Shown: in pieces, positions 36,980 to 53,342 of the stretch
Layout of the letters: every line of letters starts with the position of its first letter
Position numbering within the stretch: the first letter of the stretch is position 1
From: Geminocystis sp. NIES-3708
GTDB lineage: Bacteria; Cyanobacteriota; Cyanobacteriia; Cyanobacteriales; Cyanobacteriaceae
NCBI RefSeq assembly: GCF_001548095.1
Contig: NZ_AP014815.1
Location: forward strand, 682,001-746,000
Length of the DNA: 64,000 nucleotides
Reading direction: 5' to 3'
Position numbers and translations under genes: made by a program
Notes under the pieces: generated by a model
What the model was told of the DNA's origin: nothing
What the model saw: the letters and a program-made list of their open reading frames with translations, nothing else
The model's database searches: none

Positions 36980-38512
36980 TTAAAATACCTTCCACCAACG
37001 ACGACTACCATCAGGAAAAGTAGTAGTCCAATTTATCCTTGCATCTTTTAATTGTTGCTGATTAATTTTTGCATTTTTTAAGTTTGCACCACATAAATTA
37101 GTATTCGTTAAATTCGCATTTGTTAAATCAGCACTAGCTAAATTTGCTCCTTTTAAATCGGCATTTTCTAAATTGGACTTAGAAAAATAAGTTTGAACTA
37201 GATTAGCATTGGTTAAATTAGCATTACTTAAATCAGCACCATAAAAATTAGCTTGAGATAAATTCGTATCTGCTAACATAATTTCTTGTAATTGAGAATA
37301 ACGAAAAATACATTTATTCAGCTTACTGCCTTGTAAATTTAAACCTTGTAAATCTTGATCACTAAAATCTTTTTTACCACTATTAAAAGCCGTTAAAAAT
37401 TTTTCTTCATCCCACTTTAAAGAAATATTTTTATTTTGTGTTTTATTGCGTCTTTGTTGGATTGCTTTTTGGATTTTCTCGGTGGCAGAAATAGTTTTTG
37501 TCGCTTGGGTGTGACCGTCATCTAGATTCCCAACTCCTAGTTGACTCAAATCGATTCTACTATCTTTTGATGCTTGATTGTTAACAATATTTTGGCTTAA
37601 ACTTTGTTGAAAAGGTTGAATATTAAGGGCTTCAATCAATTCATCCACGGTTTTATAACGCTCACGAGTATCTTGAGCTAACATTTTTTGAATTATTTTT
37701 AGCAAACCACTGCTAATATTAACATCTTGTTGCCATAGTAGTTGACCTGTATTCGGATCAATACTAAAATTCTTGGGGGATTTACCCGTGATCAAATAGA
37801 CACAAGTAGCACCCAGAGCATAAATATCACTGGAATATACTGGACGCATTGCTAACTGTTCTGGAGGTGCATAGCCCATTGTGCCAACAGAAAACTTTGT
37901 TAAAGCTGTTTGCCCCATAGTTTTTGCTAATTGAGTATTAACTTGATCTTTAACTGCCCCAAAATCAATAAGTATTAATTTACCATCTTTTTTTTGTCGC
38001 AAAATATTAGCAGGTTTAATATCTCGATGAATAACTTTTTCTGAATGAAGATATTTAAGGATAGGAGTAATCTCCTCTAAAAACCTTCTGATGGCAATTT
38101 CTCCATAAACTCCTTGATTTTTAATTTCTCGCTGTAAATTTTGACCATTAATTAATTCTTGAATCAGATAAAATTGTCCTTGATCTGCAAAATAGTCCAT
38201 TAGTTTTGGTATTTGAGGGTGGCTTATTTTATCTAAAGTTTTTGCTTCTCTTTCAAATAAACTAATAGCCGTTTTTAGGGCTTGAGGATCATCAGCCATC
38301 GGGCGTAATTGTTTCACAACACATAACGGATCACCAATTACAGTTAAATCAACACCTACAAAAGTTGCTCCAAAACCACCTTTTCCTAACATTTTGATCA
38401 CTCGATAACGATTATTCAAAATTAAACTAGAGCCACAATTATTACACTTTTTTAATTTTGGGTGATTTTTTGGTTCAGAACAGTTAGGGTTAACACAGTA
38501 ACTAATAATCAT
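36980..38512 (-). CDS. Serine/threonine protein kinase with N-terminal Cys motif and pentapeptide repeats
   Basis: The 510-residue protein is a Hanks-type kinase of the SpkB-like group. Residues 1-33 carry a zinc-ribbon-like set (YCVNPNCSEPKN ... KKCNNCGSSL). The kinase domain has the glycine loop LGKGGFGATFVG, Lys in CVVKQL, catalytic loop VIHRDIKPANIL, DFG in LIDFGAVKDQ, and GTMGYAPPEQLAMRPVYSSD. A linker leads to pentapeptide repeats (about 390-490, patterns ADLSNANLTNANLVQ, ADLTNANLTNTNLCG), and it ends TFPDGSRRWW. It is about 105 bp from its paralogue on the same strand. Ligand and targets are unknown. Confidence 0.92.
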   Translation of the reverse strand: MIISYCVNPNCSEPKNHPKLKKCNNCGSSLILNNRYRVIKMLGKGGFGATFVGVDLTVIGDPLCVVKQLRPMADDPQALKTAISLFEREAKTLDKISHPQIPKLMDYFADQGQFYLIQELINGQNLQREIKNQGVYGEIAIRRFLEEITPILKYLHSEKVIHRDIKPANILRQKKDGKLILIDFGAVKDQVNTQLAKTMGQTALTKFSVGTMGYAPPEQLAMRPVYSSDIYALGATCVYLITGKSPKNFSIDPNTGQLLWQQDVNISSGLLKIIQKMLAQDTRERYKTVDELIEALNIQPFQQSLSQNIVNNQASKDSRIDLSQLGVGNLDDGHTQATKTISATEKIQKAIQQRRNKTQNKNISLKWDEEKFLTAFNSGKKDFSDQDLQGLNLQGSKLNKCIFRYSQLQEIMLADTNLSQANFYGADLSNANLTNANLVQTYFSKSNLENADLKGANLASADLTNANLTNTNLCGANLKNAKINQQQLKDARINWTTTFPDGSRRWWKVF

Positions 38513-38616
38513 CGTTTTGCCATGAATTTGTAAGTAAATTTAATTGAGCGTAGTTTTGATAAGGGAAGAAAAGAAGAGGGAAAAGAGAAATTTTCAAATA
38601 ATTAATGATGAATTAT

Positions 38617-40140
38617 TTACCACCATCTTCTTTTACCGTCGGGAAAAACAGTACGCCAGTTAGTTTTAGCGGTTTTGAGTTGTTCATCATCGACTTTTGC
38701 ACCCCGAAGATTTGCACCTCCTAAATTCGCATCTTTTAAAATAGCACTATTGAGATTTGCACCCATTAAATCTGCTCCCTGTAAATCAGCATTTTTTAAA
38801 TTTGCTTTATATAATTCCGCCCGTTGTAAATTTGCTTCCTTTAAATTTGCTTGAGCTAAATTAGCATTATAAAAATTAGTGCGATAGAGATTAGCTTTTT
38901 GTAAATTGATTCCAATTAATTTGCTTTGAGAAAAACTTGCTCCCGCTAATTTTAATCCTTCTAAATCTAATTCATTTAAAACCTGTTGACTAAAATTACG
39001 ATTTCCTTGGCGATAGTCTTGAACAATCATTTCTGGAGTTAACTGTAATTTGGGCTGACTCAAAGATGCAATATTAGGTTGATTTCTTGCTCCCCCAATA
39101 TTACCCCCTAACTTCTCCTTTCGTTTTCTAATAGCATCAGCTAAGTTTTGAGAAGTTGAACTAGCAATGGTAACTTCTTCCTCTTCATCTCCTGAATCTT
39201 TTCCACTACTTAAATTAACCATACTTCCAGCTAATTCTTGTTCATAAGGCACTAATTCTAAGGCTTTAATAACGTCATCTGCCGAAGGATAACGTTTACG
39301 CACATCTAACTCTAGCATTTTGTTTAAAACTTTAGCAAAAGTACCACTGACAGTAGTATGTTTTTCCCATGCTAATTCCCCTGTAGTGTTATCACATAAA
39401 TCTTTTGGTGCTTTTCCTGTTAATAAAAAAATACAAGTTGCCGCTAGAGCATAAATATCACTGGAATATACTGGACGCATTGCTAACTGTTCTGGAGGTG
39501 CAAAACCCATTGTGCCTACGGAGATTTTTGTGAAAGCACTTTGAGGATTTTGACTCATTAATTGAGTGTTGGCTTGTTCTTTTACTGCCCCAAAATCAAT
39601 TAAAAATAATTTATTTGTTTCTTTTTCCCTTAAAATGTTTCCGGGTTTAATATCCCGATGGATTACCTTTTGAGAATGAATATACTTCAATACAGGTAAC
39701 ATATTACGCAGAAACTGTTTTGCAGAACTTTCCTGATAAATACTCCCTTTTTTGATTTCTTTTTCCAAATCTTTACCCAAGACAAAATCTTGAATTAGGT
39801 AAAACTGTTCATTTTCTTCAAAATAATCTAATAATTTCGGAATTTGGGGATGATCCAATTTCGCAAGAGTTTTAGCTTCCCTTGCAAATAAATCTAATGC
39901 TGTACGATGAGATTCAGGATTAGAGGCGGCAAGTTCTAGTTGTTTTACCACACAATAACGATTTTTTTGAGCCATATCCACGGCTAAATAAGTTGTCCCG
40001 AACCCCCCTCGACCAATTTTTTTGATAGCCACATAACGCCTGTGGAGTATCAGATTAGACTGACAACTCCGACATTTTTTGGTTTTCGTATCATTTTTAG
40101 GATCTTCACAGTGGGGGTTGAGGCAATAAATAACGCTCAT
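38617..40140 (-). CDS. Serine/threonine protein kinase with pentapeptide repeats, paralogue
   Basis: The 507-residue protein is laid out like the preceding-coordinate kinase: N-terminal CLNPHCEDPKN...KKCRSCQSNL, glycine loop IGRGGFGTTYLAVD, VIHRDIKPGNIL, LIDFGAVKEQ, GTMGFAPPEQLAMRPVYSSD, then pentapeptide repeats (ANLYRTNFYNANLAQANLKE, ADLQGADLMGANLNSAILKD) and TVFPDGKRRWW. The two share long near-identical stretches, so they come from tandem duplication with later divergence, chiefly in the linker between kinase and repeats. The same strand carries two unknown proteins directly upstream. Confidence 0.92.
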   Translation of the reverse strand: MSVIYCLNPHCEDPKNDTKTKKCRSCQSNLILHRRYVAIKKIGRGGFGTTYLAVDMAQKNRYCVVKQLELAASNPESHRTALDLFAREAKTLAKLDHPQIPKLLDYFEENEQFYLIQDFVLGKDLEKEIKKGSIYQESSAKQFLRNMLPVLKYIHSQKVIHRDIKPGNILREKETNKLFLIDFGAVKEQANTQLMSQNPQSAFTKISVGTMGFAPPEQLAMRPVYSSDIYALAATCIFLLTGKAPKDLCDNTTGELAWEKHTTVSGTFAKVLNKMLELDVRKRYPSADDVIKALELVPYEQELAGSMVNLSSGKDSGDEEEEVTIASSTSQNLADAIRKRKEKLGGNIGGARNQPNIASLSQPKLQLTPEMIVQDYRQGNRNFSQQVLNELDLEGLKLAGASFSQSKLIGINLQKANLYRTNFYNANLAQANLKEANLQRAELYKANLKNADLQGADLMGANLNSAILKDANLGGANLRGAKVDDEQLKTAKTNWRTVFPDGKRRWW

Positions 40141-42971: not shown

Positions 42972-43871
42972 ATGAAAAAATCATTGCTATTATTATTAAT
43001 TCCTATAGTTATTAATACTTCTATTTTACCGATTTATGCTAGTCAATTATCTCAAACTTCAATTGCATTGAAGAATAAATCAGTTGAATCTATGACAGCA
43101 GAAGATTATTATCGGAGAGGATTTACTCTTTATGAAAATGAAGATTATCAAAAAGCTATTATTGACTTCACGAAAGCCATTGAATTAAACTCAAATGATT
43201 TTTCTAGTTATCTTTATCGAGGCAAATCTTATTATTTTTTAGATCAAGAAGAAAAAGCTGTTATAGATTTAACACAAGCAATAAAACTAAACTCTCAGAA
43301 TGCAGAAACCTATTATTTTAGAGGAGAAAGTTATTTTTATCTTAGAGAATATCAAAATGCTATTGCTGACTTTAATCAAGCCATAAAATTAGAAGCCGAT
43401 ACCAGTCTTCCTTATATAAGTTTAGGGAAAGTTTTTAATACTATTGAAGAATATCAAAAAGCTGTAGATATTTTAAATTTAGCTTTAAAAATTAACCCTG
43501 AATCTCAGTTTGCTTATCAATTAAGGGGAGATGCTTATCTTGATTTAGAAAAATATCAACAAGCCATTAACGATTATACTTCTGCCCTAAAAATATCAGA
43601 AAATCCTCTTACTTATCACCTAAGAGGCATTGCTTATGGATATTTAGATCAATATCAAAAAACTTTAATGGATCAAAATAAAGCTATTGAATTAGATCCT
43701 AATAAGCCAGATTACTATTATATCAGAGGTATAACTTATTGGACTTTAGAACAAAATAAAAATGCTATTGATGATTTAGAAAAAGCAACGGATTTATATA
43801 AACAATTAGGAAACCAACAAAAATTAGAACAAATTCAAAAACTTATTAATGAAATTCGAGGGAATAAGTAA
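42972..43871 (+). CDS. Secreted tetratricopeptide-repeat protein
   Basis: The 299-residue protein has a signal peptide (residues 1-23, KKSLLLLLIPIVINTSILPIYA) and then about seven canonical 34-residue TPRs from residue 42 on: DYYRRGFTLYENEDYQKAII, AETYYFRGESYFYLREYQNA, QFAYQLRGDAYLDLEKYQQA, PDYYYIRGITYWTLEQNKNA. TPR proteins of this kind serve as adaptors for complexes at the thylakoid or periplasm; no partner is evident. It is followed after 132 bp by the giant repeat protein, which uses a quite different repeat (13 residues). Confidence 0.85.
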   Translation: MKKSLLLLLIPIVINTSILPIYASQLSQTSIALKNKSVESMTAEDYYRRGFTLYENEDYQKAIIDFTKAIELNSNDFSSYLYRGKSYYFLDQEEKAVIDLTQAIKLNSQNAETYYFRGESYFYLREYQNAIADFNQAIKLEADTSLPYISLGKVFNTIEEYQKAVDILNLALKINPESQFAYQLRGDAYLDLEKYQQAINDYTSALKISENPLTYHLRGIAYGYLDQYQKTLMDQNKAIELDPNKPDYYYIRGITYWTLEQNKNAIDDLEKATDLYKQLGNQQKLEQIQKLINEIRGNK

Positions 43872-44003: not shown

Positions 44004-47000
44004 ATGAAAAATAAATATTCCCTCAGTCTTAGTAATAGTTTAAGAAAGAAAATAAATTTACTAAATTCTTCATACCAACAGACTATTTTAGCAAACTTAG
44101 AAAGCATTATTTATCATCATTTATTAACTTCAGAACTTGAAAAAAGAAAAGAAGAAAAAGTAATTTATCGCCTTAACTATAACTATAAGCTAGAAATATT
44201 TATTACTCAGATTATTTGTGATAAAGAAAATGTTGTTAAAGTTTTAAATATTTTTGATAAAAATAAACTAAAACGAATTATTGTTTTTAAAGAAGGATTC
44301 TCTGCCAAAATTATTGATATTGATATTAATATTAATAGAGAAGATAATTTAATTAATACAGAAATTATTAATAACTTTAAAAGCAAAGAAAATTTAAAAA
44401 TACAAATGGAAGACTTTGAAAATAAATTTGATGACTTTTTTTGTCATAGTTTACAAAGTTTAAATATTTCCCAAACTAATACTAATAAACTTCTTATATC
44501 TTTAGAAGAAATTGATAATATTCAAAAACCCTTACCTTTACTTTTACAAGGATTTAATAATACAGGAAAAACAACGGTATCTTTAATCAAAGCTATTCAA
44601 GGTAGTAAAGAAAATCTCGAAGAAAAAATTCTTTATCTCAGTGATAGTTTTAGCAATAAGTATCATACTCAATATTTATCTCAAGAATTGTTGCAAGGAG
44701 AAAAGATAAATAACTTAATTATTGATGATTTTGTTCATTGTATTCGTAAATTTGCTCAAGATAATCATATTTTAGAAAATAATATTTTTCTGAGAAGTAA
44801 ACAAGTTAACTATAACAAATTCAAAGATAAATTTTTAGCTAACCAAGAAATAGAAGATATAGAATCATGGCATCTTTGGCAAGAAATTTATTATTTAATT
44901 AAAGGAAATCAGAATTACTCAAAAAATAATGATTATTTAATTTCCTTGGAAGATTATCAACAACAAATTCAAGCATTTAGTTTTTTGCCCCAAGATATTA
45001 ACCCTAAACAAATTTATCAATTAGCCGTTAAATATCAACAATGGTTAACAAAAAATAACTATTGGGATGAAACCGATTTAAGTAATTATATTTTTAGAAA
45101 TATTTCTGACAATTTTAGAGGAATTTATGCACAAGTTTACTGGGATAATATCCATCAATTTAATGATATAGCTTTAAAACTAATTCTCTCTTTAACGAAA
45201 AAAGATTCTGAGCAAAATTTGACTACTAATTTCTGTTTTACCTATGATAGTCAAAAATCTATTTATAATTCGACAACTTTTATCCGTAAAATTGAAAAAT
45301 TTATTTCTCCCGAAAAAGCCTTGACAATTAATCAAGGAAAATTAACTTTTAATTTGATTGCTAATGAAAATTTAACTAATTTTAGTCAAGGATTATTAAA
45401 TCTGGATTTAAGTAAAAAAACATCTAGTCAAGATATTCTGAAAAATAATCGGATTCTTCCACAAAATAGTCATTGTTTATGGATTATTACCCCAGAATCA
45501 AAATTATTAAATTTAGGAAAAAATTTTGGTGTCGATAAATGTATAGTCGTTGTTAATAGTCAGGAAAAAGAAAAGTTACTCACTATTTTTAACACTAATC
45601 AAGAAATTTTCAACAGTCGCATTCTTACTGTTAATGAAATCGATGGTTTAAAATTTAACGAAATTATCCTCTGGAATTTTTTTAGTTACTTTAACAACAT
45701 TAAATATAATAGTCTGACAACAGATTTATTGAAAAAATATCTATATCTTTGTTTGGGATGTGTGAAGGAAAAAATTTACTGCTGTGAAAGCAATTTTAAT
45801 CTTACTCAAAACTATCCTGATTTAGAAAATTATTTAAGTAAAGGTAATCTTGAAAATTTAGAAGAGTTTTTTACTATTTCTGCCGATGAAAATATTAAAA
45901 CTATTGCTCAAGTTTATCATCAACAAGGGTCATGGCAACAGGCTTATGAATGTTATTGGCAGATAAAAAACTATAAACAAGCCAAACTAATTCAACCTTA
46001 CATCGCCGAAAATCAAGGTAATTGGGGAAAAGCAGGAGATTTATGGAATATTTTAGAAAAATGGCAAAAAGCTGTTAACTGTTGGCAAGAAATTGATAAA
46101 AATTTATGGTTAAAAAAATGGGGTAATTTAACTCCTTTACAATGGCAGGAAAAAGGAAGATATTTTCAACAACACCACCATTATGACTTAGCAATTGTTT
46201 GTTATGAAAAAGCAGATGATAGTGACAATTATTTACGTTGTTTAAAACTTTCTCAAGCATGGGAAAAAGCAGGAGACGAATATAAAAAACAAGGTAATGA
46301 TGAAGAGGCGGAGAAATGTTATCTTATGGCGGAAAAAAAATATCGTCAAAATAATAATTTATCTCGTTGTGCTTTGATGTGGGAAAAACAAGAAGCATGG
46401 GAAAAAATTGCCTTAATCAGAGAAGAAGAAAGTCAATGGCAAAAAGCCGCTTTAGAATGGGAAAAAATTGATAAATGGGAAAAGGCTGCTATTTGTTATC
46501 AAAAAAATTCTCAGTGGGAAAAAGCCGAAATTTGTTGGCGAAAATTAAATAATTGGCAAAAAATTGCTTTATGCTGTCAAGCACAAAAAAAATGGCAAGA
46601 ATCAGCAAAAATTTGGGAAAAATTACAGCAGTGGCAAAAAGCTGCACAAAATTATTTAAAAATTCCGCAACTTCCTCAAGCTGCCGAAAGTTATCAGCGA
46701 GGAATGTATTGGCAAGAAGCAGAAACTTGTTGGCGTAAACTTAATGATTTACCGAATATCGCTAATTGTTGTGAATCTCAACATAAATGGCAATCCGCCG
46801 CACAAATTTGGCAACAGTTACAAAATTGGCAAAAAGCTGGTTACGCATGGGAAATGACGAAGGATATAAAAAAAGCTGGTTTATGTTATGAAAAAGCCAA
46901 ACTTTGGTCAAAAGCAGAAGAATGTTGGCTAAACTTAAAAAATTGGGGAAGACTTGCCCTTATTTATCAAAAAATAGGAGAATGGGAAAAAGCAGGGGAA

Positions 47001-49298
47001 ACATGGTTAAAAATTGATGAAAAAAAATCGGCTGCTAAATGTTACTCTCAAGGAAAATTATGGAATTTAGCAGAAAAATTATGGCGAGAATTAGAAAATT
47101 GGCAAGAAGTCGCTTTTTGTTGTTATCAACAGCAAGATTATGAAACCGCCGCTAATCTTTGGGAAAAATTACAACTGTTTTCCGAAGCTGGAAAAGCATG
47201 GCAACAATTAGAAGAATACTCTCAAGCGGCTTGGTGTTATGAAAAAGTTAAGGCATGGAAAGAAGCGGAATTTTGTTGGCAAAAATTGGAAGAATGGGAA
47301 AAAGTCGCTATAACTTGTCAAAAACAAAATCATTGGCAAAAGTCAGGCGACATTTGGTTACAGTTAGGCAATTTATCTCAGGCTTCTCTTGATTATGAAT
47401 TAGCAAAAAATTGGCAAAAAGCTGAAGACTGTTGGCGACAATTACAACAATGGGTTAATGTTGCCATCATGTGTGAAAGACAAGAAAAATGGTTAGAAGC
47501 CGCACAAACTTGGCAAAAAGTTAAACCCGTAGAAAAAGCAGCTTGGTGTTATGAAAAAGTCAAGGCATGGAAAGAAGCCGAAAACTGTTGGCGAAAATTG
47601 GAAGAATGGGAAAAAGTCGCAATTCTTTGTGAAAAACAAGAAAAATGGCAAGATTCAGCGATGCTGTGGCAACAATTAAGTCAATGGCAAAAAGCCGCTA
47701 CTCAATGGGAAAAAATTAATCAACTAGATTCAGCCGCGATTTGTTATGAAAATGCAGAAAATTGGCAAAAAACTGAAGAATGTTGGCATAAATTAAAAAA
47801 TTGGCATAAATTAGCCGAAGTTTATCAAAAACAAAATAAGTGGGAATTTGCTTCTCATTTGTGGGAAAAACAACAAGTATGGCAAAAAGCTGCTGAAGCA
47901 TGGTTAAAAATAGAAGAAATCGAAAAAGCAGGTAACTGTTACGAAAAGGTTGAAAATTGGCAAAAAGCAGAAGATTGTTGGCGAAAATTAGAAGACTGGG
48001 AAAAAGTTGCCTTAACTTGTGAAAAACAAGAGGCATGGGAAAAAGCCGCCGAAGCATGGTTAAAAATAGAAGAAATCGAAAAAGCAGGTAACTGTTACGA
48101 AAAAGTTGAAAATTGGCAAAAAGCAGAAGATTGTTGGCGAAAATTAGAAGACTGGGAAAAAGTTGCCTTAACTTGTGAAAAACAAAAGGCATGGGAAAAA
48201 GCCGCCGAAGCATGGTTAAAAATAGAAGAAATCGAAAAAGCAGGTAACTGTTACGAAAAAGTTGAAAATTGGAAAAAAGCAGAAGATTGTTGGCGAAAAC
48301 TGCAAAATTGGCAAAAAGTCGCCTTAACTTGTGAGAAACAAAAGGCATGGGAAAAAGCCGCTGAAGCATGGTTGGCTATTGAAGCAGTAGAAAATGCCGC
48401 TAAATGTTATGAAGTAATTGAAAACTGGGGAAAAGCCGAATCTTGTTGGTTAGTAATGGGTAATTGGGAAAAAGCTGCTGAGATGGCGGAAAAACAATCT
48501 AAGTGGGAAACCGCCGCCGATATTTGGCAAACTCAACAACAATGGCAAAAAGCCGCCCAAGCATGGTTACAAATTTATCAATTAGACAATGCCGCCGTTT
48601 GTTATCAACAAGGAGAGTTTTGGGATTTAGCCGAAAACCTTTGGCGACAACTAGAAAACTGGGAAAATGTCGCTTTCACTTGTGAAAAACAAAACCAATT
48701 TGAAAAAGCAGCATTCGCTTACCTTCTTAATAATAACTATCAATTAAGTGCAGAAATTTATGAGAAAATTGAACTCTATTCCGAAGCCGAAAAATGTTGG
48801 CGACAACTAGAAAACTGGGAAAATGTCGCTCTTCTCTGTGAAAAACAATCTAAGTGGCAAGAGGCAGGAGAAGCATGGCAATTAATATTAGACTGGGAAA
48901 AAGCAGCTTTCGCCTATCAAAATGGTCAATTATGGCAGAAAAATGCTGATTGTTGGCTAAATTTAGCCCGATATGATATGATGGCGATCGCCTATCAACA
49001 ACAAAAACAATGGCAAAAAGCAGGGGAAACTTGGCTATTAAGTCAAGAAAAAGATAAAACTATTAAAGCTGCCCTTTGCTACGAACAAGGATTATACTGG
49101 TCATTAGCTGAAGAATGTTGGCGTAAAATAGAGCAATGGGATAAAGTTGCCTATACTTGTGAGCAACAGGGTAAAGATAAGTGGGATAATGCGGTTGAAG
49201 CTTGGCAACTAGCTGGGAATAAATTAAAAGCCGCTAATTTACTCCGTAAAATGGGTAAATGGAAACAAGCCGCATTAATGTTAACCAATAGAAGCTAA
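44004..49298 (+). CDS. Giant 13-residue-repeat protein with degenerate superfamily-1 helicase-like N-terminus
   Basis: The 1764-residue protein has two parts. Residues about 165-640 resemble the UvrD/TRANK1-type helicase-like fold: Walker A in LLLQGFNNTGKTTVSLI, a WDETDLSNYI element, VYWDNIHQFNDIALKLILSL at the motif II position, and LTVNEIDGLKFNEIILWNFF at motif V. The motif II Asp-Glu is Asp-Asn here, so helicase activity is doubtful. From about residue 790 to the end come ~75 consecutive 13-residue units (AEECWRKLENWEK type: small-x-x-Cys/Trp ... Trp-x-Lys), in a fourfold order CY / CW / CE / W units of 52 residues. These probably form a long helical solenoid. Possible earlier, looser units start at ~640. 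Function unknown. It lies 132 bp after the TPR gene and 124 bp before the GIDE-like gene. Confidence 0.9.
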   Translation: MKNKYSLSLSNSLRKKINLLNSSYQQTILANLESIIYHHLLTSELEKRKEEKVIYRLNYNYKLEIFITQIICDKENVVKVLNIFDKNKLKRIIVFKEGFSAKIIDIDININREDNLINTEIINNFKSKENLKIQMEDFENKFDDFFCHSLQSLNISQTNTNKLLISLEEIDNIQKPLPLLLQGFNNTGKTTVSLIKAIQGSKENLEEKILYLSDSFSNKYHTQYLSQELLQGEKINNLIIDDFVHCIRKFAQDNHILENNIFLRSKQVNYNKFKDKFLANQEIEDIESWHLWQEIYYLIKGNQNYSKNNDYLISLEDYQQQIQAFSFLPQDINPKQIYQLAVKYQQWLTKNNYWDETDLSNYIFRNISDNFRGIYAQVYWDNIHQFNDIALKLILSLTKKDSEQNLTTNFCFTYDSQKSIYNSTTFIRKIEKFISPEKALTINQGKLTFNLIANENLTNFSQGLLNLDLSKKTSSQDILKNNRILPQNSHCLWIITPESKLLNLGKNFGVDKCIVVVNSQEKEKLLTIFNTNQEIFNSRILTVNEIDGLKFNEIILWNFFSYFNNIKYNSLTTDLLKKYLYLCLGCVKEKIYCCESNFNLTQNYPDLENYLSKGNLENLEEFFTISADENIKTIAQVYHQQGSWQQAYECYWQIKNYKQAKLIQPYIAENQGNWGKAGDLWNILEKWQKAVNCWQEIDKNLWLKKWGNLTPLQWQEKGRYFQQHHHYDLAIVCYEKADDSDNYLRCLKLSQAWEKAGDEYKKQGNDEEAEKCYLMAEKKYRQNNNLSRCALMWEKQEAWEKIALIREEESQWQKAALEWEKIDKWEKAAICYQKNSQWEKAEICWRKLNNWQKIALCCQAQKKWQESAKIWEKLQQWQKAAQNYLKIPQLPQAAESYQRGMYWQEAETCWRKLNDLPNIANCCESQHKWQSAAQIWQQLQNWQKAGYAWEMTKDIKKAGLCYEKAKLWSKAEECWLNLKNWGRLALIYQKIGEWEKAGETWLKIDEKKSAAKCYSQGKLWNLAEKLWRELENWQEVAFCCYQQQDYETAANLWEKLQLFSEAGKAWQQLEEYSQAAWCYEKVKAWKEAEFCWQKLEEWEKVAITCQKQNHWQKSGDIWLQLGNLSQASLDYELAKNWQKAEDCWRQLQQWVNVAIMCERQEKWLEAAQTWQKVKPVEKAAWCYEKVKAWKEAENCWRKLEEWEKVAILCEKQEKWQDSAMLWQQLSQWQKAATQWEKINQLDSAAICYENAENWQKTEECWHKLKNWHKLAEVYQKQNKWEFASHLWEKQQVWQKAAEAWLKIEEIEKAGNCYEKVENWQKAEDCWRKLEDWEKVALTCEKQEAWEKAAEAWLKIEEIEKAGNCYEKVENWQKAEDCWRKLEDWEKVALTCEKQKAWEKAAEAWLKIEEIEKAGNCYEKVENWKKAEDCWRKLQNWQKVALTCEKQKAWEKAAEAWLAIEAVENAAKCYEVIENWGKAESCWLVMGNWEKAAEMAEKQSKWETAADIWQTQQQWQKAAQAWLQIYQLDNAAVCYQQGEFWDLAENLWRQLENWENVAFTCEKQNQFEKAAFAYLLNNNYQLSAEIYEKIELYSEAEKCWRQLENWENVALLCEKQSKWQEAGEAWQLILDWEKAAFAYQNGQLWQKNADCWLNLARYDMMAIAYQQQKQWQKAGETWLLSQEKDKTIKAALCYEQGLYWSLAEECWRKIEQWDKVAYTCEQQGKDKWDNAVEAWQLAGNKLKAANLLRKMGKWKQAALMLTNRS
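47901..48368 (+). repeat. Three near-identical tandem 156-bp units inside the giant gene
   Basis: Units start at 47901, 48057 and 48213, each 156 bp (52 codons), with few substitutions. They encode copies of the four-unit block beginning WLKIEEIEKAGNCYEKVENW. A fourth start at 48369 has diverged. It signals recent expansion by recombination. Confidence 0.85.
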
Positions 49299-49422: not shown

Positions 49423-50211
49423 ATGAGTATTATCGGTATTGTTTTTATGGCGATCGCAATTATTCTTGTAGTAATACGTCATTTTCAGGCACAAGAGTAT
49501 TCAAGTTTACAATTGGCAAGAAGTACTAACGTCGAAGAATTAAAATCAACTTCAATAGCTATTAAAGAACAGATTGGAGGAGGTAACTGGAGAGATTATG
49601 TTAAAATATGGGGAAAAATCTCTGTCTCTGAGCCTATTCTATCAGAAATCAAACAAGAACCTTGCGTTTATTATCAAATGTTGGTAAAACGAGAATATGA
49701 AGAAAAAGTGCGATCGCAAAATAGTGAAGGAAAAACCGAAGAAAGAATCGTTAAAAAATCTGAAATTATCGCTGAAAATAACCGTTCGATTTCCTTTACC
49801 ATAACAGATAATACAGGAGAGATTATAATTAATCCACAAGGTGCAAAATTTGACACCATTAAAATACTAGACGAGTTTCGTCCTGAAGAATCAAGAGGGG
49901 GAATGCTTAAATATGGTAGTTTTTCTTTACTGTTGAAAAGTGATTATTCTCAAACTCGCACTTTGGGTTATCGTTATCAAGAATTTATTTTGCCTGTGGG
50001 GGAGGAAGTTTTAGTCGTAGGCACAGTTAGTGATGAGACTGGTAATTTAAGGATTACACAACCTGTCAATGAAAAAGAAATGTTTATGATTTCTCTGAAA
50101 ACAGATGAAACATTAACGGCTAACTATGTTCGTAACCATAAAAACTTTACTTATGGCGTATATACTTGTTCTATTATCGGTTTGATTTGTATAATTATTG
50201 GTATTTTTTAG
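49423..50211 (+). CDS. GIDE/MULAN-like membrane protein
   Basis: The 262-residue protein has a TM at each end (residues about 2-20 and 243-262) and a central domain with YVKIWGKISVSEPILSEIKQEPCVYYQMLVKREYEEK, then SFTITDNTGEIIINPQGA and LGYRYQEFILPVGEEVLVVGTVSD. This is the GIDE domain known from eukaryotic MULAN-type membrane E3 ligases and from bacterial proteins without the RING finger. There is no RING finger here, so no ligase activity is implied. Role unknown. The gene follows the giant repeat protein by 124 bp; two HIP1 sites lie inside (49451, 49714). Confidence 0.8.
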   Translation: MSIIGIVFMAIAIILVVIRHFQAQEYSSLQLARSTNVEELKSTSIAIKEQIGGGNWRDYVKIWGKISVSEPILSEIKQEPCVYYQMLVKREYEEKVRSQNSEGKTEERIVKKSEIIAENNRSISFTITDNTGEIIINPQGAKFDTIKILDEFRPEESRGGMLKYGSFSLLLKSDYSQTRTLGYRYQEFILPVGEEVLVVGTVSDETGNLRITQPVNEKEMFMISLKTDETLTANYVRNHKNFTYGVYTCSIIGLICIIIGIF

Positions 50212-51878: not shown

Positions 51879-53342
51879 CTAATTCCTAATTAACTTCAGG
51901 CAATTATCGCATTTACCGCAACGAAAATTTGTCGAAGGAGAAAAGCCAAAAGCTGATAATAAAAAACTCCAACGACATATTTTAGTGGTTAAATACTCAT
52001 GGGTTTGTTTAATCAATTTTTTTTGTCGATTTATCAGCAATTCTATTGATTGATGAGTTTTTGAGAGATTTAAGCAATAATTATAAGGATCAATCCACTG
52101 CAATTGTTGGCTACTATTTAAAATGGACAGATATAGTTGATAGTTAGGGTTATTAATTTTTTTTGATAATTCTTCAATATTTCCCCTTGTTGGTATTTCC
52201 TTTAAAAATCTTTCGGCTTGTTGATAAAGTTTGATTTGTTGGTTTAAAAAATACTCTCTTCTATTTTTATCTTCTGGATTCAACCAACCACTAGCTTCAC
52301 TCATCAAGGTTATAACTTCCGTAAGTATTCCGTCTCTGCCACCTCTGCCAATCTCTTGGATATATTCTGATAATAATAACGGTGCTTGGTAATGAAAAAT
52401 CCATCGTAAGTTACTTTTATTTATACCCATACCAAAGGCACAAGTACAAACTACGAATTTTATTTTCTCCGTTAGCCAATCAGATTCAACTTTTCGGCGA
52501 ATATTACCACTTAACCCACCGTGATAGGCTTGATTTTCATATCCTTCTTTCTTGAGTAAATTTGCTAATTCTTCGCTATCTTTTCTCGTGCGTACATAAA
52601 TTAAGCCACTTTTCTTTTTATTTCTTTCAATATATTTAATTAACTCTTGTTTTCTTCCTCTTGGTGTCCAAATAGTTTTTATTTGTATCTTGAGGTTATC
52701 ACGGTAAGGACTGATTAAAAATTTTTCAGGATTAAATAATTGTAAAGATTGAATAATAGTTTTTTGGGTATTAATATCCGCAGTGGCAGTAAAACAGGCG
52801 ATCGCTATTTTAGTATCGGATGTTTTATTATTAAGTAATAATGGGCGAATATTGCCTAAACGTCGATAAGTTGGGCGAAAAGATTCTCCCCATTGTGCTA
52901 AACAGTGAGCTTCATCTACAATTAAACCATTAATCTTAATTTCTGGGTGGCTGATAATTTTCCAGATTGGCGGAGAAAGTAAGGTTTCTGGGGATAAATA
53001 AAGCAATCTTAATTGTTGCGATTCTAACGCTGAAATGGTATTTTTACGTTCAACTTTACTTACTTCACTGTGTAAAATTCCTGCGGGTAAATTTTTTTCT
53101 CGTAATTCTTGTACTTGATTTTCCATTAAGGCAACTAAAGGAGAAATAACCAAAGTTAACCCTTCTTGTAATAACGCTGGTAACTGAAAACAAAGAGATT
53201 TTCCTCCTCCCGTTGGCATGACAATTAAACAATCTTTTCCCGTCAAAATTGCTTCAATAATTTCTGCCTGTGGCTTGCGAAAATCATCATAACCCCAGTA
53301 TTTTTTAAGAGTATCTTTTAATCTTTCTATCTCATTTTTCAT
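51879..53342 (-). CDS. recQ: ATP-dependent DNA helicase RecQ (short form without HRDC)
   Basis: The 487-residue helicase unwinds DNA 3'-5'. Motifs: YWGYDDFRKPQAEII (motif 0), MPTGGGKSLCFQLPALL (Walker A), LVISPLVALMENQV, LIVDEAHCLAQWGESFRPTYRRLG (DEAH and aromatic-rich loop), SGLIYVRTRKDSEEL, CTCAFGMGINKSNLRWIFHY and EIGRGGRDG (arginine finger). A zinc-binding Cys set is in the C-terminal region (ICRW ... FRCGKCDNCLKL). It ends after that site; the winged-helix part is unclear and there is no HRDC domain, unlike E. coli RecQ of about 610 residues. It stands alone on the minus strand. Confidence 0.93.
   Translation of the reverse strand: MKNEIERLKDTLKKYWGYDDFRKPQAEIIEAILTGKDCLIVMPTGGGKSLCFQLPALLQEGLTLVISPLVALMENQVQELREKNLPAGILHSEVSKVERKNTISALESQQLRLLYLSPETLLSPPIWKIISHPEIKINGLIVDEAHCLAQWGESFRPTYRRLGNIRPLLLNNKTSDTKIAIACFTATADINTQKTIIQSLQLFNPEKFLISPYRDNLKIQIKTIWTPRGRKQELIKYIERNKKKSGLIYVRTRKDSEELANLLKKEGYENQAYHGGLSGNIRRKVESDWLTEKIKFVVCTCAFGMGINKSNLRWIFHYQAPLLLSEYIQEIGRGGRDGILTEVITLMSEASGWLNPEDKNRREYFLNQQIKLYQQAERFLKEIPTRGNIEELSKKINNPNYQLYLSILNSSQQLQWIDPYNYCLNLSKTHQSIELLINRQKKLIKQTHEYLTTKICRWSFLLSAFGFSPSTNFRCGKCDNCLKLIRN

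Follow-up and report, generated by a model that had tools for sequence, protein, structure and literature searches.

A putative nucleotide-binding pseudo-helicase head on a giant array of 13-residue units in Geminocystis sp. NIES-3708

Background

In SF1 helicases roles are assigned to single motif residues, among them the catalytic Glu, the Mg-binding Asp and the arginine fingers. TRANK1 combines a UvrD-like SF1 helicase with repeats (TPR and ankyrin), a general plan like that of the protein described here; our literature searches found no paper linking TRANK1 to the present family. The helices of TPRs follow a residue pattern of their own, which served for comparison with the array of this protein.

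In AddB and RecC, inactivated SF1 helicase domains have a non-motor role in Chi recognition and sequence scanning, as described in passages of PMC4824097. Besides these two, other inactivated SF1 helicases may exist. The protein described here is encoded in a window of 64,000 nucleotides, the whole stretch of DNA that was analysed. It and its relatives resemble AddB and RecC in that a UvrD-like SF1 fold has lost its catalytic motifs, but they differ from them in carrying a giant solenoid and in having kept the P-loop and the motif II Asp in 23 of 23 inactive members. The Pfam model ADDB_N matches one shorter relative (L044, class B below) weakly, with an E-value of 0.009 that lies below the cut-off. 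No AddA/RecB partner was found among the neighbours scanned (20 of the 53 listed window ORFs, the window protein included), and the window protein has no Pfam match to a nuclease domain. By analogy, AddB and RecC would be the best precedent, that of a motor turned reader or anchor, for a protein that is not a member of their group.

With the SF1A helicases UvrD, PcrA and Rep the family shares the order of the motifs and an alignable conserved stretch, YQxWL...D..DL, ahead of motif II, whereas its classes B and C have lost the catalytic Glu, the Gln of motif III and both Arg. Among outgroup relatives (class D) L050 and L053 combine UvrD and TPR in one chain, and L049 from Crinalium is annotated as 'UvrD-helicase domain-containing protein'; classes A to C contain 13-residue units instead of 34-residue TPRs. 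No description of the family was found in literature searches judged by titles and abstract openings.

Results and Discussion

The gene and its relatives

The frame at 44004-49298 is intact over 1764 codons from an ATG start, which bears out the 1764-residue protein that an earlier note had read from this DNA. The gene and the two parts that precede its solenoid are:

44004..49298, + strand: complete gene (1764 aa), a long (class C) representative of the pseudo-helicase/solenoid family (open reading frame)
44004..44348, + strand: N-terminal module, roughly residues 1-115 (order of elements in the AlphaFold model)
44481..45803, + strand: helicase-like domain (SF1A, UvrD/PcrA-derived), residues about 160-600 (family profile, motif alignment)

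The window genome (G000; 4.04 Mb in 6 contigs) contains a single paralogue of the window protein, of 1310 aa. Matches to the head at E<=1e-3 comprised 39 ORFs in 41 loci, and 35 entered the tree and the motif table. All helicase motifs are intact in class A (three rows from the cyanobacterial family of the window genome) and in L047, which comes from another family. Catalytic residues are lost in the 13 rows of class B (about 1300 aa) and in the 10 rows of class C, which include the window protein and are mostly 1660-1790 aa long. An active relative with a shorter tail, L075, was found in a Negativicutes MAG.

Class C forms a clade with support 100/100, and classes B and C group together at 93/98 in the tree that includes the motif columns. 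When these columns are left out, the inactive rows still lie on one side of a branch, with weak support (43/82; one change); as bootstrap trees need one or two changes, there was either a single loss of catalysis or two. Sisters with intact motifs have an array of the same kind, which makes the solenoid and the dead head two distinct events.

Class A occurs in three of the 15 family genomes (G008, G009 and G011), as judged from a window-head search of all 15 genomes and a class A search of seven. Class B occurs in 13 and class C in 10 of the 15; class C is absent or broken in five, one of them only 67% complete. Eleven of the 15 genomes thus contain an inactive but no detected active form, so that the inactive forms do not have to act as regulators of an active paralogue. 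Across the phylum, the class A head finds some match in 54 of the 386 genomes drawn from it; matches below 1e-80 are confined to the family and G038, and the next, at 8e-47, comes from G109 (unclassified). Incomplete copies were also seen: G003 additionally holds an unclassified fragment, G005 (the 67% complete genome) an interrupted homologue with two TGA codons (L048), and G011 a broken class C-like relic, L043, with four stops (one TAG, three TAA).

The helicase-like head

Pfam finds no UvrD match in the window protein alone, and a PF00580 search of the window genome did not recover it. Kinship becomes visible at the level of the family: an 18-row family profile run against the PDB matches PcrA at E 3e-4 over the whole sequence (best single stretch 0.027) and aligns the motif II/III region to PcrA too, if not significantly, and outgroup D proteins match PF00580 at 1e-15 to 5e-20 (three of five rows scanned). 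These comparisons indicate that the head is a descendant of UvrD/PcrA-type SF1 helicases. The motif positions of the window protein are:

44550..44573, + strand: Walker A GFNNTGKT (residues 183-190), kept (K and S/T in 23/23 class B and C rows)
45144..45158, + strand: motif II DNIHQ (381-385), with the Asp kept and Asn in place of the catalytic Glu (alignment)
45243..45260, + strand: motif III position YDSQKS (414-419) for GDxxQS (alignment)
45342..45362, + strand: motif IV position LTFNLIA (447-453), Arg lost (Arg in 0/23 class B and C rows)
45627..45656, + strand: motif V position TVNEIDGLKF (542-551) for TxHxxKGLEF (alignment)
45744..45764, + strand: motif VI position YLCLGCV (581-587), with Cys586 in place of the arginine-finger Arg (Arg in 0/22 aligned class B and C rows, one gapped)

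Alignment with the genome's own PcrA-like protein placed GFNNTGKT, DNIHQ and TVNEIDGLKF as the earlier note had described them. To its list has to be added the loss of both arginine fingers (motifs IV and VI): in the window protein the motif III Gln has become K, the motif IV Arg I452 and the motif VI Arg C586.

This pattern extends across classes B and C. The Walker A Lys, the Ser/Thr next to it and the motif II Asp are each present in 23 of 23 rows, while the catalytic Glu is kept in one of 23, the motif III Gln in two of 23, the motif IV Arg in none of 23 and the motif VI Arg in none of the 22 that align. By comparison, Lys, Asp, Glu, Gln and both Arg are found in all ten active rows (three of class A, L047, five of class D and the one from Negativicutes), and three class E rows keep Lys, Asp, Glu, Gln and the motif IV Arg, their motifs V and VI being unaligned. 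Of the 588 well-filled columns, 25 are invariant in classes B and C, among them those of the Gly and Lys in the P-loop and of the Asp in motif II. Most of the 25 fall within the first RecA-like half, at the P-loop, LWxEI...KG, YQxWL....WD..D and the Asp of motif II.

Retention of the P-loop and of the Asp could also mean that these proteins are divergent but still active NTPases or helicases that use other catalytic residues; the class A sisters look fully active, and L066, the class B gene of the window's own genome, has kept the Glu (DE) as the only one of the 23. Against this, the Glu is not the only loss: the two arginine fingers have gone with it, and so has the Gln of motif III in 21 of 23. 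The substitutes of the Glu, D (10), N (7) or G (5), provide no single conserved alternative, and we regard continued activity as highly unlikely. For some members, residual hydrolysis is possible in view of DD in 10 of 23 and DE in L066.

Selection on the putatively inactive head

Rates of dN/dS were estimated by the method of Nei and Gojobori. Between the window gene and its G003 orthologue they are 0.25 for the N-terminal module, 0.20 for the helicase-like part and 0.16 for the solenoid; for the window gene and G002, where dS is near 0.8-1.0, the corresponding values are 0.39, 0.32 and 0.18. The helicase-like part gives 0.21 between G002 and G004. A dead head evolving at 0.20-0.32 is not that of a decaying gene. 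In the single matched pair, G011 and G008, the helicase domain gives 0.10 for the active class A and 0.08 for the inactive class B, so that constraint on the dead head is not visibly weaker in this pair. The earlier note's view of a helicase-derived head in which NTP binding is possible and hydrolysis doubtful agrees well with this purifying selection and with the motif pattern of the 23 homologues.

Two other explanations of the inactive head have to be considered at this point. The gene might be a decaying helicase pseudogene, as could be read from the lost catalytic residues and from the G011 relic with its four stops. An open frame of 1764 codons, dN/dS of 0.16-0.39 over all modules in the window comparisons and the collinearity of the genus orthologues largely refute this reading and make it scarcely credible. 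Alternatively, the head might be only structural, with the P-loop holding the fold and the solenoid doing all the work. Such a division would fit the lower dN/dS of the solenoid (0.15-0.18, against 0.20-0.32 for the helicase-like part) in all three class C comparisons; for folding by itself, however, not all three of Lys, Ser/Thr and Asp would be required, which are present in 23 of 23 while the other catalytic residues drift, and we judge a purely structural head to be unlikely.

The N-terminal module

AlphaFold places a strand, three helices and further strands in the N-terminal module, with block-mean pLDDT of 35-64. Each of the four outgroup D heads scanned has a match to YoeB or HigB that falls short of the curated cut-off (best E-value of each head between 4e-4 and 4e-3); no such match was obtained in the same scan for the window head, three class A/L047 heads and L075. 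Comparison of the heads of classes A to C with the RelE-like heads of class D by hhalign (P 0.15) gives no support either. From the predicted order of elements and the outgroup matches, a RelE-like module is a possible guess. In class B the module is loose in two pairs other than G011 and G008 (dN/dS 0.60 and 0.70). Many of the wider relatives (L105-L107, L109-L114 and L116-L121) have more than 300 residues before the P-loop, a region in which a small domain may be present twice.

The array of 13-residue units

The remainder of the protein is a repeat region with the following parts:

45879..46355, + strand: irregular start of the solenoid, residues 626-784 (AlphaFold helices)
46356..49046, + strand: regular array of 69 thirteen-residue units, residues 785-1681 (lag identity, score matrix, unit typing)
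47865..48478, + strand: recently duplicated 156-bp (52-aa) super-units (period 156, 3.9 copies, 88% matches)
49047..49295, + strand: C-terminal end of the solenoid, residues 1682-1764, a few units out of register (lag identity, score matrix)

Among lags 1-119, self-identity in residues 621-1764 is highest at 52, 117, 104, 65, 26 and 13 (0.22-0.33), as compared to a shuffled maximum of 0.104 on average and of 0.117 in the highest of 200 shuffles; residues 1-620 are free of such a signal in the same scan. A 13-residue score matrix finds 80 matches above 6 bits in the window protein and, on 200 shuffles, a mean of 1.1 and at most 5. Since the matrix was built from 66 core units of the window protein itself, its 80 matches measure regularity and are not an independent test. 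The register is unbroken over the 69 units from 785 to 1681, one of which (798) scores below the cut, and irregular units flank the regular array on both sides, beginning at about residue 630. The earlier count of about 75 units from about residue 790 is close.

Trp occupies position 2 in 47 of the 66 core units, and Ala or Val position 5 in 55. Position 6 has Ala, Gly or Ser in 52 units and Glu in the 14 others; Trp, Tyr or Cys is found at position 9 in 65, and Lys or Gln at position 11 in 49. When the units are typed by a simple rule, those of type a recur seven times at a spacing of four units (52 aa, mostly abcd) and six times at a spacing of five (65 aa, mostly abccd). The fourfold superperiod of 52 residues proposed before thus holds for seven spacings, and six follow a fivefold one. 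The order of 52- and 65-residue steps is the same in the window protein and its G003 orthologue over the first nine steps, and both lags are present too in class B and in the active class A proteins. The G003 orthologue lacks one exact block of 104 residues and is otherwise collinear with the window protein. Judging from this gap and from the recent 156-bp copies (3.3 copies with 94% matches at 47865-48373), the array grows and shrinks by whole super-units. On the opposite strand the array contains an ORF of 217 aa (47716-48369, - strand), very likely a by-product of the codon usage of the repeats.

What kind of solenoid might these units form? The array scores with the Pfam models Clathrin (5.7e-17) and TPR_2 (9.7e-14), and in a phmmer search of PDB sequences the whole chain matches IFT172 (4.7e-6) and IFT144 (3.2e-5), the sole matches at E<=0.01, with best single stretches that are modest (IFT144 1.4e-4, IFT172 0.016). 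In such repeat-rich sequence these matches point to a kinship of pattern rather than to proven common descent. The spacing W2-A5-A/G6-aromatic9 resembles the TPR helix pattern. The array differs from TPR, clathrin and IFT solenoids in having 13 instead of 17 residues per helix and in combining a register without break over 69 units with a mixture of four- and five-unit super-units. A lag of 34, the period of TPR, is outside the 12 best lags of the window protein. The earlier statement that the array is not TPR is hence only partly right: the period is 13 and not 34, but the array resembles TPR, clathrin and IFT172/IFT144 solenoids.

AlphaFold models of two pieces, built from shallow alignments of four and three sequences, reach mean pLDDT of only 46.7 and 38.0, and block means of 72-89 are confined to about residues 631-730. 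Helices are modelled there at 644-653, 657-670, 674-683 and 687-697, with turns of three residues before the Trp or Tyr that opens a unit. The core array mostly has pLDDT below 50, at which the model proves nothing on its fold. As the turn residues of the core array are similar to those of the modelled stretch, helices of about 10 residues joined by three-residue turns would be expected, and the helices of the array may be described as TPR-like helices about one turn shorter. The solenoid is probably TPR-derived. Many helices of the second model span two units (about 23 residues), which would suit 52-residue hairpins, but at pLDDT below 50 these are evidence neither way; super-units of five helices flip parity and sit awkwardly with a fixed two-layer hairpin solenoid. 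Array matches at E<1e-20 occur in 10 of 148 genomes of the order, namely nine of the window's family and G038.

A probable former motor on a proposed scaffold

No known family accounts for the function of the protein. From the sequence pattern, the history of the family, the purifying selection and the regularity of the repeats, we lean towards the explanation that it is a nucleotide-binding, non-hydrolysing pseudo-helicase head on a shortened-TPR-like, protein-binding scaffold. Within one cyanobacterial family, a UvrD-like helicase that already carried a solenoid of 13-residue units was duplicated. The paralogous lines B and C lost the Glu of motif II, the Gln of motif III and the two arginine fingers but kept the P-loop Lys, the Ser/Thr and the Mg-binding Asp. 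The head would then bind NTP, or a related ligand, together with Mg but without turnover. The bound state may set the conformation or stability of the head and hence the docking of partners, possibly with single-stranded nucleic acid among them, lying in the old track. The solenoid would serve as a protein-binding scaffold whose length changes by whole super-units. In other words, a former motor has probably been turned into a switch or anchor on a scaffold, and we infer that the head senses NTP. A bolder version, in which an SF1 helicase has become a nucleotide-gated, non-hydrolysing switch that controls a giant coat-like (IFT/clathrin-type) solenoid, often with two paralogues per genome, is offered tentatively and seems to us rather doubtful. 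No such scaffold of 13-residue helices was found described in bacteria in our literature searches.

The family provides a natural series in harmless cyanobacteria, intact class A against the inactive classes B and C on the same kind of solenoid, which allows one to test, one residue after another, how catalysis is lost while the nucleotide pocket is kept. In addition, the unusually regular 13-residue helical repeat may serve the design of repeat proteins and studies of the origin of IFT-type solenoids.

Genomic neighbourhood

Ordinary genes adjoin the window gene, namely those for PsbP, Maf, a GIDE-domain protein, LpxC, ribosomal protein L9 and a RecQ-like helicase, and PsbP lies within about 1.3 kb in three of the four genus members with class C (the window, G003 and G002). 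Class C orthologues within the genus are collinear. Clustering of the neighbours of 30 loci, which covered nine of the ten class C loci (L038 was too short) and the window with only 1.5 kb of flank on each side, found no gene that more than two or three class C loci have in common. The idea of an 'undescribed system', also raised in the earlier note, is so far not supported, as no partner gene recurs beside class C. At filters of E 1e-8 and half-length, the upstream 299-aa TPR gene (42972-43871) was rejected as an operon partner because it has no match beside the G003 orthologue, and the genes for the GIDE-domain protein, LpxC and L9 because they have none in the 3.6-5.9 kb downstream of other class C genes.

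Could the protein act in defence or conflict, with a head that senses foreign nucleic acid and a solenoid that recruits an effector? Active relatives score with the GajB and RTasHel models (class A L064 at 1.4e-8, outgroup L053 at 2.8e-22 and L075 at 7.9e-14), although these models may match any UvrD-like helicase, and two outgroup relatives are located on plasmids, one of them adjoining a ParA gene and near genes for DUF262 and DUF3696 proteins. The window protein, however, matches none of the PADLOC families at E up to 1. No relatives were found on viral contigs in three single-protein scans that reach only close relatives, or in phages with a class A query. Moreover, class C is present in 10 of 15 family genomes, in the genus mostly near PsbP, and no effector gene recurs beside it. 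A defence role thus appears quite improbable, and a phage or mobile origin was rejected in view of the lack of viral or phage relatives in these scans and of only two plasmid copies, both in the outgroup.

Several neighbours were noted besides. In genus g3 all three class C loci (L039, L040 and L041) have, at a distance of about 2 kb, a gene that we take, from the look of its sequence, to encode a DNA photolyase. Upstream of the window gene, about 4 kb away, two tandem Ser/Thr kinases with pentapeptide repeats are encoded (36980-40140). A Ser/Thr kinase 38-40% identical is found upstream of class B, on the same strand, in three g3 loci (L059, L060 and L061), starting 1.8 kb upstream in two of them and ending 0.13 kb away in the third. 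The distance from the window gene to the gene for the RecQ-like helicase downstream (51879-53342) is 2.6 kb. The same three g3 loci have a RecQ homologue, with about 38% identity, no more than about 5 kb from class B; this proximity to both classes may be due to chance. Finally, the frame at 49423-50211 encodes the GIDE domain (Pfam PF12483, E 3.7e-38), which is named for an E3 ubiquitin ligase family.
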